A stretch of DNA of 64,000 bases from Scenedesmus sp. ARA3 (lineage: Eukaryota; Chlorophyta; Chlorophyceae; Sphaeropleales; Scenedesmaceae), in assembly GCA_004335835.1 (NCBI GenBank), contig RWJK01001062.1:25962-89961 (forward strand). The letters are read 5' to 3'. Below are positions 1 to 33,528 of this stretch, one piece after another. A program made the position numbers and the translations under genes. The notes under the pieces are model-generated. The model did no database searches. It was given only the letters and a program-made list of their open reading frames with translations, and was not told the DNA's origin. Position 1 is the stretch's first letter. The number at the start of each line of letters is the position of its first letter.

Positions 1-3000
1 CAGCAGGAGAGGCTGATGAGGTGGCTGCGGGTGCTGCTGGGGGCCATGTGGTAGAAGCAGAGGATGACAGCGCTGCTGAGGTGGTGCACGATGAAGGGGT
101 GCTGCAGGTGAGAGAGCGCGGCTGAGGTGGTGCACGAACAGTTCATGCAGGACTTTTCAGGGGGCCCAGCACTAGCAGTAGTACACACATCATCGTGCAT
201 CAGCAGCAGGATGTACTGCTGCTGGCAGTGCTGCTGGTAGTGCAGCTACCTGTCGGGTGCATTGTTCAGGAGGCTGATGAGGTGGCTGCGGGTGCTGCTG
301 GGGTCCATTTGGTAGAAGCAGACGATGACAGTGCTGCTGAGGTGGTGCACGATGAAGGGGTGCTGCAGGTGGGAGGGATGTGGGGCAGGGATTGCTGAGG
401 GTTTAGGGTTTGGTTCGGCTGTTGAGATGGCTGGGGGCCATGTGGTTGAAGCAGAGGATGACAGTGCTGCTGAGGTGGTGCACGATGAAGGGGTGCTGCA
501 GGTGGGAGGAATGCAGGGCAGGCTGAGGATGTAAGGTTTGGTTTTGGCTGTTGAGATGGCTGGGGGCCATGTGGTGGAAGCAGAGGATGACAGTGCTGCT
601 GAGGTGGTGCACGACGAGGGCGTGCTGCAGGTGCGAAACTGGAGACCTGGGCACATGAATGGCTGAGTGACTTGCTGCTGCTACCCCTGCTCCCACTGCT
701 TCCTCTTCTGACTTCCCAGGCCATGTACATTTTCTGTGGCTCGCCCACCTGCTCATGACCTGGGCAGTTGTCAGCGCGCAGGCGCGACAGCCGCACCGCA
801 GCAGGGCGTGCCGTGGCCCACTTACTACTTCCTCTGGCTCCCCCACTTGGTGGAGACCAGGGCACACAAACTGCTGACAAACCTGCTGCTGCTGCTGCTG
901 CTGCTGCTGCCGCCGCTTATTTCTCTGACTATGCAGGCCATCTACGCACATTTCTTGTGGCTCTCCCACCTGCTTGAGACCTGGGCAGTCGTCAGCCGCC
1001 TGCGTGACGGCCGCACCGCAGCAGCACGTGCCGTATATGGCCGCCTGCTGGCAGCATCGCTGCAGGACCCAGCAGTGCTGTCTCATCACCCAGCTGCTGT
1101 TGGGGCTTACTTCCGGCTGCTCACTTTGGGTCTGGTGTATGGCCGCAGCTGCCTGGGTGCTGCGGGCAGCGGGCCTGGCAGGGGCCAGGATGTGCTGCTG
1201 CTGTTTGACAGGATCCTACGCGCGGTGAGTGAGCGGTTTCATATGTTGCAGGCTGCTTGAGGTTGGCAGGGCATGCAGGGCTGGTAGCAGCAATGCTGCA
1301 GATGCCTCTGCTGGTTTGAAGTGTGTGTGGTCTCTCTCTTCGATGCGTCTCCTCTTTTGGGTAACACTGTGGTGTCAGCGCACTGCTCAAGGTTAACAAA
1401 CTGCGCTGCTTGTTTCTCTGCGCAGGCGCTGCTGTGGTTCTACTCGCCGCCGCGCTTCTTTGCTTTTATGTGTGTGTGGCCTTTTCATCTTCAGCACCAG
1501 ACTCCATGCGCAGCTTGGCTTGTGGGCAGCTTCCCTGTTCAAGCACAAGGCACCAGCCCAACAGCCAAAATACATGCTGGCTTTTTGTTGTGCTGCGCAG
1601 GCGCTGCTGTGGTTCCGCTCGCCGCCGCGCTACTTTGCGCGCTGCAGCCGCCACACCGCGCAGCAGCAGCTGGCAGCACTAGAAGCGTTCATGGCTGAGC
1701 TGGGCAGCTTGGTGGCGCTTGGCGCTGCTGGGGGCATCGCCTGGAAGCAGGGTGGCTGGCCCAGCTACGACTGCGGCTGCATGCCTGGCGCGGGTGCGGG
1801 TTTGAGTATGTGTCTGCATGAGTGCGTGCTCTCTGTGCGTGTGTGCGTAAATGTGCAAAGTGTGCTGTGTGTTGCAAGTGCTGTGGGTGTTGCAGCACAG
1901 CTTTGTCTAGCCGGCAGCGCTAGAAGCTTTCATGGCTGAGCTGGGCAGCCTCGTGGCGCTTCGGGGCGTCGCGTAGCGGCAGGACGGCTGGCCCAGCTAC
2001 GGTTGCGGCTGCATGCCTGGCGCAGGTGCAGGTGGGTGTTTCTGCATATGCGGGTGTGATGTGTTACACACAAGTTGACGACGCCGCTAGCGGCATGAAG
2101 CTGTGCCACACCGCTGACAGTGCAGTGTCACAACTAGTGAGGTTTCTAGCTTGTCACACTGCTGACGCTTGTTGGCGAGGTCCCCCTTTGACTTGTGTTG
2201 CTGAACTCGATGCCCTGCAGGCCACCATGCAGCCCAGCAGCAGCAGCAGCTGCACCCAGTGTGGGGCGTGGCGGCACCTGCAGTCGGCAGCTACGTGTCG
2301 CTGCTGCGGCTGCTGTGCAGTGAGGAGCTGGCGCGGCTGCGAGTGTGGGTGGAGCCACTGAAGTATGCAGACGCAGCCAAGACAGCACCAAACGTGAGTG
2401 TGTGTTGCTATCAGTGGTTGGGCGGTTGTCTGTAGCTAGCTTTGTTTGGGCAATGAGGAGTTGGCGCGGCTGCGGGTGTGGGTGGGGCCGCTCAAATACG
2501 CAGACGCAGCCAAAAAAAGAGTCAATGAGTTACGTGTTTAATGCGCCACCCTGGGGTGCACATACTGCCTTTTCCTTTACCATGTTTGTGTTACAATGCT
2601 CTCGTTTGTACTGACCGATCGCTGTGCGTTGTGCTCAACCACCAATTGTATATCTCCTTTGTTTGCAGGTGCCGTGGCGCGAGCACGCACCTGTGGCCTG
2701 GCAGGTGGACCCCTGTCTTTTGATATGTGTTGCCGACAACTTGCTGCACTCGCATTGCCCGTCAACTACTCACACACCAATTACTGCATGAATAATACCT
2801 TGCAGGTGCCTTGGCGCGAGTACGTGTCGCTGGCCTGGCAGGTGGACCCCTGCCTGGCGCTCAGCCTGCTGCCATGTTTGCATCACAAATTGTTGCACAT
2901 GCTGCATGTTAACTGCTTTTCCGCGCCGCATCTCGCCTAAACAACTCCTTGCAGGTGCCGTGGCGGGAGTATGTGTTGCTGGCGTGGCAGGTGGACCCCT

Positions 3001-33434: not shown

Positions 33435-33528
33435 TGGCAAACAGGAGCCGGCTGCTGACCACGGACAGAACGAAAATGGTGCAGGCAAGGCAGAAAGCGG
33501 CAAGGCTGAGGCTAGCCGCGCAGCTTGA
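26392..33528 (+). CDS. GR: Glutathione reductase (NADPH), plant type
   Basis: This FAD enzyme regenerates glutathione from its disulfide with NADPH. The eleven-exon model gives 637 aa with every phase consistent: 26392-26584, 26952-27155, 27424-27583, 28584-28688, 28981-29059, 29465-29548, 30162-30314, 30825-31086, 31562-31776, 32583-32789 and 33277-33528. Residues 1 to about 95 resemble a plastid transit peptide. Motifs are the FAD fold YDAVIIGAGSAGVRAAR, redox disulfide GGTCVLRGCVPKKLL, NADPH fold IGGGYIGMEFAGMF, SIWAVGDVTSRIALTPVA, and the catalytic His in VGIHPTSAEE. A Ser run interrupts the segment before GNEQVLLAVGR, and the C-terminus carries a Gln run. The first true ATG is at 26392; the frame upstream begins with TTG. 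Introns are packed with exon echoes. Confidence 0.95.
27263..27815 (+). repeat. Echoes of the glutathione reductase disulfide exon
   Basis: 27263-27343 copies ARVAVVELPMAFLSSADKGG upstream of the intact exon (27424-27583) and then diverges. 27630-27709 copies LRGCVLKKLLLFPTEF and ESAKGFG before GTGAGT. 27745-27813 copies PKKLLLFATGFKSNIESVKG before GTGGGT. The first echo lacks both redox cysteines; in the second one of the CxxxxC pair survives. Confidence 0.88.
28160..28500 (+). repeat. Three echoes of the glutathione reductase exon at 28584
   Basis: Copies of GTGGACTGATGCCTCTGCTGG-like sequence encoding WTDAxxGELDWGGFMA begin near 28177, 28334 and 28451, each after CTG-rich DNA. The intact exon starts at 28584. 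A fragment of its end (LSRINKGYKEGLDR) recurs at 28761-28803. Confidence 0.88.
29130..30130 (+). repeat. Echoes in glutathione reductase introns 5 and 6
   Basis: 29136-29162 repeats LDGRSIT and its donor from the exon ending at 29059. 29624-29672 repeats SHIPIPGAEHAIISDQ before GTAATG. 29899-29965 and 30026-30090 are decayed copies of the LEALPKVVTLIGGGYIGM exon, whose intact form starts at 30162. Confidence 0.8.
30459..30800 (+). repeat. Echoes of the glutathione reductase exon at 30825
   Basis: Copies of GCAGTGCACCGCCT, then GCAGGCATCC and ACATGC, lie at about 30474, 30603 and 30734. Preceding CTGCAG or GCGCAG acceptors are recognisable. GCAGGCATCC occurs at 30490, 30619, 30750 and, in the intact exon, 30861 (spacings 129, 131 and 111). 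Confidence 0.88.
31157..31975 (+). repeat. Echoes around glutathione reductase exons 8 and 9
   Basis: 31157-31220 copies the end of exon 8 (AGQAR-QKGWGLRRSG in a shifted frame, then GGGTGAGT). 31450-31500 copies GPKGSVKVDAHSRTN upstream of the intact exon (31562). 31846-31950 copies the VGLNIATGQ and SYEAVLSACFSWP tail and ends GTGGTGAGT. Confidence 0.85.
32134..32582 (+). repeat. Four tandem echoes of the glutathione reductase exon at 32583
   Basis: Acceptor CAG is followed by GGCCTCACTGA or a close variant (GGCCTTACTGA at 32357), with the exon starting after 32133, 32243, 32356, 32467 and, intact, 32582 (spacings 110, 113, 111 and 115 bp). Copies 3 and 4 read GLTEEEAAKKGL or GLTEEEAAKKRL plus the HTFSPL or HTFNPL segment. 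Copies 1 and 2 are damaged. Confidence 0.93.
32877..33230 (+). repeat. Echoes in the last glutathione reductase intron
   Basis: 32880-32985 copies LQRCFVKMLTEPENGRLPGL and the GEEAPD part of exon 10. 33147-33215 copies ALALKLGSPKQQLDSLLGIH, the start of exon 11 (33277). CTG runs precede the copy and the true acceptor. Confidence 0.88.

Follow-up and report, generated by a model that had tools for sequence, protein, structure and literature searches.

Partial exon copies in the introns of a glutathione reductase and a PI4-kinase gene of Scenedesmus sp. ARA3 and their probable origin by tandem duplication across splice sites

Why are the introns of two genes in a green alga filled with diverged pieces of their own exons? 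The question was raised by a 64,000-nucleotide stretch of the Scenedesmus sp. ARA3 genome, bases 25962-89961 of contig RWJK01001062.1 (C748) in an assembly of 87.3 Mb in 1567 contigs. This stretch is referred to as the window, and positions are window positions unless another locus is named. The two genes encode a glutathione reductase (GR) and the alpha PI4-kinase (PI4K), and the copies, termed echoes, flank their exons. Probably, local tandem duplications, each over a single splice site, have repeatedly turned exon ends into intron sequence; the resulting echoes would be skipped by splicing and would have been coding-like at birth or for some time after. Moderate confidence is placed in this reading.

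Both genes were modelled by hand on the forward strand. The GR gene comprised 10 exons (26939-27155, 27424-27583, 28584-28688, 28981-29059, 29465-29548, 30162-30314, 30825-31086, 31562-31776, 32583-32789 and 33277-33528), position 26939 being the start of the model and not asserted as the true start codon. For PI4K, the 3′ part encoding the C-terminus was modelled with 15 exons (937-1224, 1601-1799, 2221-2393, 3342-3482, 3961-4158, 4831-5006, 5572-5701, 6290-6469, 7477-7614, 8004-8105, 8351-8521, 9204-9350, 9781-9858, 10011-10142 and 10420-10521), and the gene extends upstream of this part. It held the Pfam domains PI3Ka, PI4K_N and PI3_PI4_kinase and matched PI4KA in PDB. As the first-pass annotation of this DNA had stated, models that skip every copy were intact, with open frames and GT-AG introns in both genes. 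Exon borders read CAG/GTG. The GR model protein shared 97% identity with Tetradesmus obliquus A0A383VZR7 (97% also with T. obliquus P0001), 85% with Scenedesmus sp. NREL 46B-D3 and 84% with P0003, a relative's protein with an accession of the transcript-assembly type. These values place the organism among green algae near Tetradesmus. It aligned to the relatives' proteins along the full query length, and inserted repeats were absent from A0A383VZR7 and P0003 in the comparison with the model. Poly-Q and poly-S runs were present in the GR protein.

Echoes were identified by local alignment of each exon to its flanking introns. Matches were accepted when the score exceeded the best of 60 shuffles per intron (dinucleotide, in some cases single-base) and was at least 18. 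This yielded 59 diverged partial exon copies, 25 in GR and 34 in PI4K. At least one was found at 9 of the 10 GR exons and 13 of the 15 modelled PI4K exons, which bears out the earlier description of copies beside nearly every exon. Echo-bearing introns numbered 9 of 9 in GR and 12 of 14 in PI4K, one of the latter via the weak exon-14 match (73% identity) only and one via two short matches only. The echoes of PI4K exon 15 sit 3′ of the stop codon. Reverse-complement scores never exceeded the shuffle maximum in this search. Self-comparison of positions 1-33528 gave 76 direct repeats within 1 kb, no inverted repeats within 1 kb and no repeats in 20 dinucleotide shuffles.

The polarity described in the first-pass annotation, with front-end copies upstream and tail-end copies downstream, was recovered throughout. 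Thirty-eight echoes lay upstream of the parent exon and held its head; 21 lay downstream and held its tail. Among the upstream echoes, 33 began at most 16 bases into the exon and none extended to the exon end, while all 21 downstream echoes finished at most 13 bases from the exon end and none extended to the exon start. Not one of the 59 was full-length, and a whole exon with both splice sites was never copied. Copies had also been said to carry splice signals of their own. At the position matching the exon border, 27 of the 38 upstream echoes had AG and 17 of the 21 downstream echoes had GT, so that 44 of 59 retained the splice-site dinucleotide. Two of the four tail echoes without GT derive from the last PI4K exon, where the stop codon replaces the donor. 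A frameshifting gap was found in 10 of 59 echoes. Stops occurred in 10 of 59, two of which held the parent's own stop only and eight a premature one; four of these eight were also frameshifted. The premature stops and frameshifts indicate that many copies no longer code. Up to five events recurred at a single exon border.

These counts bear on the idea that the cell uses the echoes as alternative or mutually exclusive exons. Tandem exon duplication of that kind likewise places exon copies beside the parent, and differs in copying whole exons with both splice sites. The retained dinucleotides would fit such use, as would the coding-type divergence described below. However, each echo has at most one parental splice site, and the inner edge, as aligned, was followed by GT in 2 of 38 head echoes and preceded by AG in none of the 21 tail echoes. 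Spacings were divisible by three in 15 of 40 cases, as by chance, and the relatives' GR proteins contained no duplicates. Use as exons is considered very unlikely. Whole-exon duplication was rejected: in addition to the lack of full-length copies, the spacing was below the parent exon length in several cases (e.g. 111 bp at the 215-bp GR exon 8), which excludes it there.

All echoes lie on the forward strand, and identity to the parent exon is given in brackets. In GR, exon 2 had a short fragment at 27167-27188 (91%), a head echo with CAG at 27263-27337 (95%) and tail echoes at 27626-27708 (87%, with GT) and 27745-27810 (86%). Exon 3 had head echoes at 28176-28223 (88%, without AG at the homologous place), 28335-28385 (90%, CAG) and 28450-28498 (82%, CAG) and a tail echo with GT at 28760-28803 (98%). 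Tail echoes with GT followed exon 4 (29136-29161, 92%) and exon 5 (29626-29673, 92%). Head echoes of exon 6 were located at 29901-29983 (78%, CAG and an in-frame stop) and 30030-30108 (73%, frameshift and stop). Exon 7 showed three head echoes, 30454-30505 (92%), 30589-30646 (91%) and 30714-30791 (81%, CAG), and a tail echo with GT at 31166-31220 (89%), the intron side of which was still similar. Exon 8 had an internal fragment at 31291-31335 (80%), a head echo with CAG at 31451-31494 (100%) and a tail echo with an in-frame stop at 31863-31945 (87%). Exon 9 was represented by head echoes with CAG at 32134-32194 (80%), 32357-32436 (82%) and 32468-32540 (90%), a fragment at 32262-32302 (78%) and a tail echo without GT at the homologous place at 32876-32972 (82%). 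A head echo of exon 10 was found at 33155-33218 (78%).

In PI4K, exon 1 had a head echo at 727-814 (85%) and a head echo fragment at 829-864 (81%). Exon 2 had a head echo with CAG at 1426-1463 (92%) and a tail echo with an in-frame stop at 1909-2029 (87%), and exon 3 a tail echo at 2447-2513 (87%). Five head echoes with CAG preceded exon 4, at 2669-2718 (82%), 2806-2871 (94%), 2955-3006 (96%), 3088-3154 (93%) and 3237-3302 (94%). Exon 5 was preceded by a short head echo fragment at 3771-3792 (91%) and a short head echo with CAG at 3859-3881 (91%) and followed by tail echoes with GT at 4224-4270 (77%) and 4338-4412 (93%, frameshift). Exons 6 and 7 each had a head echo with CAG, at 4710-4801 (87%) and 5442-5501 (85%), and a tail echo with GT, at 5077-5153 (88%) and 5779-5817 (97%). 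A head echo with CAG of exon 8 lay at 6119-6214 (84%), with tail echoes at 6587-6676 (89%), 6812-6931 (97%, GT, intron side still similar) and 7068-7195 (87%, GT). Head echoes with CAG preceded exon 9 (7337-7430, 77%) and exon 10 (7862-7917, 93%). Exon 12 held a head echo fragment at 8578-8620 (88%), head echoes with CAG at 8662-8732 (82%), 8817-8886 (94%), 8950-9019 (90%) and 9074-9143 (96%) and tail echoes with GT at 9418-9469 (94%) and 9575-9608 (85%). The weak exon-14 match, at 9893-9947, is doubtful. The last exon had tail echoes at 10681-10723 (95%) and 10799-10828 (83%). Repeat search and self-blast also detected four diverged copies, at 9-114, 270-375, 403-508 and 532-637 of the same strand, which probably stem from the end of an upstream, unmodelled PI4K exon with its donor.

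Repeat spacings below 180 bp were obtained for 122 pairs, with a median of 125 and a 5-95% range of 93-171. In the mechanism proposed here, a unit of about 125 bp over one splice site, part exon and part intron, would duplicate in tandem. A unit over an acceptor would give an upstream copy with acceptor and exon head but no donor, and a unit over a donor would give a downstream copy with exon tail and donor but no acceptor. Such half exons would be ignored, probably through exon definition, i.e. the pairing of an exon's two ends, leaving the mRNA unchanged and the intron longer by one unit. With the second splice site missing from each copy, the duplication would do no harm. Selection would remove duplications that add a whole exon or exon part to the mRNA, resulting in the strict polarity, and units may multiply again within the intron. 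Skipping of the copies in this alga, exon definition and the purge of other duplications are inferred. The echoes of the last PI4K exon (10681-10828), 3′ of the stop codon, indicate that duplication is not confined to introns. Recurrent tandem duplication with copies apparently bypassed by splicing had already been suggested for this DNA, and polarity, spacing and the intact skipping models uphold that part of the suggestion.

The nearest precedent is the potato RdRp gene, for which PMC4974935 describes a tandem duplication across an intron-exon border by which an intron was gained. Both cases involve a tandem unit in which the 3′ end of an intron adjoins the 5′ end of an exon, and splice signals derived from the parent. 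For the echoes, polarity, spacing and intron sides above the null (see below) point to such a unit. In potato, according to the same text, splicing uses the upstream acceptor, and a single new intron arose from a cryptic donor. Here the intact models bypass the copies, duplications touch introns at either end, and a single border can show several events. The intact skipping models and the match of GR to its relatives tend to argue against upstream acceptor use as in potato. An 83-bp intronic tandem duplication is also mentioned in a figure legend of PMC4974935.

The first-pass annotation had assigned the echoes to the AGGT tandem-duplication model of intron gain (Rogers 1989, as described in PMC3443670 and PMC4974935). 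That model shares a local tandem duplication neutralised by splicing, and differs in that AGGT inside the duplicated exon segment is required. With AG|GT inside the duplicated exon part, the upstream copy would supply the GT and the downstream copy the AG, both at corresponding positions. Only 14 of 59 echoes offered this pair, among them five that copy a single PI4K exon, and 45 did not. A GC-AG pair was offered by 19 of 59 and either GT-AG or GC-AG by 32. The CAG/GTG exon borders, the 14 suitable echoes and the related potato case speak for the model, while the 45 others and host introns much longer than one unit speak against it. The assignment was not upheld and is regarded as extremely improbable. 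Alternative use through GT and AG at the same place was likewise rejected, being offered by the same 14 echoes only. The echoes appear to sit in introns that grew in GR and PI4K, and no new intron is needed.

Intron growth was estimated by removing the stretch from the exon border to the farthest echo, weak fragments included, which made two residuals slightly negative. The mean length decreased from 540 to 170 bp in GR (n = 9) and from 516 to 200 bp in PI4K (n = 14). Echo stretches accounted for about 64% of the 12,086 intron bases of both genes, with a residual mean of about 190 bp. The introns of some genes have thus nearly tripled relative to their apparent original length through repeated local copying of neighbouring exon ends. 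This would be a concrete, countable route to longer introns without transposons. Long CTG/CAG triplet runs were also present in many window introns, often just upstream of acceptors (e.g. 7434-7474, 7947-8001, 24504-24578 and 28297-28332).

Introners and other intron-inserting transposons have caused massive intron sequence change in algae. Their copies are dispersed, and no sign of this was found here: 3.5 kb of the GR locus, searched against the assembly DNA, matched only itself in full, and the other matches listed (134) were short, at most about 130 bases. Introner or transposon insertion was rejected on this one DNA search. According to PMC5966456, introns average 462 bp in T. obliquus and 270 bp in Chlamydomonas, and the means of three other Sphaeropleales are 230, 302 and 284 bp. 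Echo growth could explain the published length of Tetradesmus introns, which exceeds that of several relatives 1.5- to 2-fold. The mean in Mychonastes is 359 bp (PMC7354681), so that intron length by itself is not diagnostic.

Plain tandem duplication followed by neutral decay fits the anatomy of the echoes and fails at the codon pattern and the intron sides. In a neutral copy beside a conserved exon, synonymous sites are expected to be about twice as different as others. Mismatches between GR and PI4K echoes and their exons were 0.083, 0.083 and 0.217 by codon position. The proportions of differing nonsynonymous (pN) and synonymous (pS) sites were 0.083 and 0.287, with a dN/dS of 0.24 (bootstrap 0.20-0.29). 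The nonsynonymous share of differences, N/(N+S), was 0.483 (99% bootstrap over 33 families 0.42-0.55) versus 0.55-0.60 in neutral simulations with transition bias. CCT1, an independent gene on another contig, had 36 echoes aligned to exons, the exon blocks being taken from PDB matches. It showed mismatches of 0.057, 0.046 and 0.173, a pN of 0.049, a pS of 0.228 and an N/(N+S) of 0.392. Echoes thus recur in three conserved genes. Between echoes, N/(N+S) was 0.55 (72 pairs), whereas site counts alone predict about 0.76 for two neutral copies, and a lower value under transition bias. Pairs of echoes whose introns could be aligned numbered only five, with 18 differences. GC content at third codon positions (GC3) was 76.6% in echoes and 76.9% in exons, and intron GC was 55.7%. 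Seven stops were aligned, including two that belong to the parent, whereas about 10-11 were simulated at a matching rate, a slight deficit. At loci without annotation, 28 pairs with a good coding score had mismatches of 0.078/0.062/0.152 by inferred codon position, and the remaining low-score pairs showed 243/230/361 mismatches; as the frame was picked by score, this result is supporting only.

The second misfit was found at the splice sites. Exon parts averaged 88-89% identity while intron sides fell near the unrelated level, with similarities of 0.579 at acceptors versus 0.552 for unrelated real sites (p=0.008) and 0.567 versus 0.525 at donors (p<0.001). These p values come from resampling, in which echoes of one family are not independent, and flanks with triplet runs were excluded (11 of 31 acceptors, 0 of 17 donors). 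The weak excess over unrelated sites indicates that the duplicated unit included intron, and exon-only copying was disfavoured on this ground. Among 15 pairs with the exon part 92-100% identical, intron-side similarity was 0.55 at 8 acceptors (four of one PI4K exon) and 0.585 at 7 donors (one with 0.79), against about 0.86 simulated for neutral copies of that age. One tail echo of GR exon 7, one of PI4K exon 8 and some CTG-rich acceptor flanks were exceptions and retained intron homology, and the young PI4K array at 2955-3237 was a further exception, with equal divergence on either side. Fast intron indels with exon parts as survivors were disfavoured, since the aligned exon parts contained 18 gaps and 470 substitutions. 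It appears that either the exon parts were preserved much better or the copies stem from two haplotypes that had diverged beforehand. Synonymous bias and splice-site collapse together suggest copies born from, or kept like, coding sequence. The overall interpretation in the first-pass annotation was upheld in part: its tandem duplication, polarity and recurrence held and its AGGT step did not. It was also incomplete, as plain duplication with neutral decay misfits both the codon pattern and the splice-site collapse.

Inter-allelic birth is the preferred, not proven, explanation of this coding-like state. Unequal crossing-over between diverged homologues would demote a working exon end of one haplotype, which would then decay. 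In a joint fit to 95 echoes of GR, PI4K and CCT1, with synonymous sites raised 15% for transition bias, a birth difference of a=0.12 with a neutral slope of 2 reached a log-likelihood (lnL) of -399.7 versus -429.4 for plain neutral decay (difference about 30); these likelihoods are too sharp, as echoes of one family are non-independent. The fitted decay slope was 1.95 (neutral) in GR and PI4K and 4.2 (non-neutral) in CCT1. The preference for inter-allelic birth is based on the neutral slope in GR and PI4K and on the premature stops and frameshifts. Several points weigh against the main reading as a whole. Constant partial constraint fits nearly equally well (lnL -402.0), and CCT1 alone leans towards it (lnL -145.3 vs -146.4). 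Intron sides are more diverged than expected from synonymous sites, and in the pairs with exon parts 92-100% identical they correspond to a divergence of about 0.25-0.35 per lineage in simulation. Inter-allelic birth requires very high allelic diversity. Finally, two echo-free loci described below, the L011 reductase gene and the L024 stretch, contradict a uniform process.

Alternatively, exchange with the exon, through gene conversion or array contraction, may have maintained the coding-like state of the echoes once they had arisen, with indirect selection against damaged echoes and free drift of the intron sides. The synonymous bias in GR and PI4K, in CCT1 and between echoes would follow from exchange, as would an echo GC3 equal to that of exons despite 56% GC introns and exon parts far better kept than intron sides. 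It is at odds with the premature stops in 8 and the frameshifts in 10 of 59 echoes and with the young array at 2955, 3088 and 3237, in which exon and intron parts were equally diverged. The bias also looked weaker in the most diverged echo per family (N/(N+S) 0.519 vs 0.465 in the least diverged, with overlapping intervals), as decay after birth predicts. Exchange is a possible, though doubtful, explanation. A broader proposal is similarly tentative and on balance unlikely: exon ends would form a turning-over stock, demoted to introns and able to return by recombination, with half exons kept coding-like by indirect selection, so that, over much of the genome, exons would lengthen and rewrite the introns beside them. 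Standard decay hardly accounts for the synonymous excess, which makes allelic birth versus indirect maintenance a question that can be tested directly in a culturable alga.

The echoes could also reflect an assembly artefact, i.e. unmerged contig-end overlaps or misplaced reads of a diverged second haplotype or strain. The unit size is close to short-read length, and coding-type differences are expected for another haplotype. The T. obliquus UTEX 393 draft is an assembly of 101-bp reads whose gaps were filled repeatedly (PMC5255914), and N runs, not necessarily gaps, were present in 4 of the 20 sampled loci described below. However, the window contains no N, arrays hold 3-6 copies that are each diverged differently, the echoes carry premature stops and frameshifts, and the repeats are concentrated in particular genes. 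The 3.5 kb of the GR locus had no second long match in the assembly, and a diverged second haplotype in the assembly was rejected for this reason. An artefact is judged improbable.

The distribution of repeats was uneven. The echoes had been called pervasive over positions 1 to 33,528, which holds for GR and PI4K and fails for the stretch as a whole. Two regions were dense in direct repeats, 1-10800 with 38.9 and 24401-33600, which includes a GNAT gene, with 33.7 per 10 kb. The density was 1.5 in the nearly repeat-free region 10801-24400 and 2.0 in the rest of the window. For the genome at large, 20 loci, each roughly 10 kb long, were sampled at a constant position of every 78th contig. Together they contained 184 local direct repeats and 3 inverted ones. 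Local direct repeats were found in 14 of the loci and were lacking in the other 6. In the sampled loci, the locus L029 and the window, 106 of 117 repeat clusters touched predicted coding sequence, compared with 71 expected at random placement, the coding predictor being trained on the GR and PI4K genes. Two loci of CCT subunits, L034 and L035, held 43 repeats (in 9.5 kb) and 25 repeats (in 9.0 kb), respectively; having been selected for overlapping profile hits already visible, they do not represent the genome at random. In L034, an array at 8027-8981 with spacings of 163-194 bp comprised five tail echoes of one CCT1 exon, and the conceptual peptides of gap-free echoes stayed near the CCT1 sequence. 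In L035, a 108-bp unit was present at 7641-8373 in about six to seven copies of 85-93% identity. Pfam hit tables of three families, covering 34 gene loci, were screened for overlapping neighbours, and mitochondrial-carrier hits were excluded because of domain repeats inside the protein. Ten overlapping pairs were found: two of head type (a CCT gene and PI4K itself), one of tail type (the same CCT gene) and seven others.

L011 (G000:C161:5001-15000) and L024 (G000:C1175:5001-15000) were among the six sampled loci free of local repeats. A second, diverged glutathione reductase gene was located in L011 at 3554-7807 on the minus strand, with nine aligned coding blocks. It reached up to 100% identity with T. 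obliquus P0023 and 36-61%, by aligned block, with T. obliquus P0001, the kind found in the window. No local repeats were detected in this gene, unlike the echo-filled GR of the window, and the pair provides a clean comparison within one genome. No local repeat was found either in L024, which resembles a multi-exon gene with 23 predicted coding segments, possibly of an SMCHD1-like ATPase.

Literature searches returned no description of such echo density; most papers in subscription journals lie outside their coverage. The decoy splice sites within near-copies of real exon ends constitute a natural test of exon choice by the spliceosome. In practice, echoes will mislead gene predictors and short-read assemblers.

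Further repeats were present in the window. A tandem array of a 109-bp unit in about 3.6 copies was located at 25278-25701 (+) at the GNAT acetyltransferase gene, as identified by repeat search and Pfam. Local direct repeats at 41359-42249 (-), 1-2 kb from an XPG-domain exon (43087-43245, -), are counted as repeats and not as exon echoes, as is a local direct repeat pair at 62998-63168 (+) upstream of a lipoxygenase exon (63349-63519). A 21-bp unit occurred in four perfect copies at 41453-41539. A pair of 75% identity, 7 kb apart at 11005-11084 and 18063-18147, possibly represents a dispersed element.

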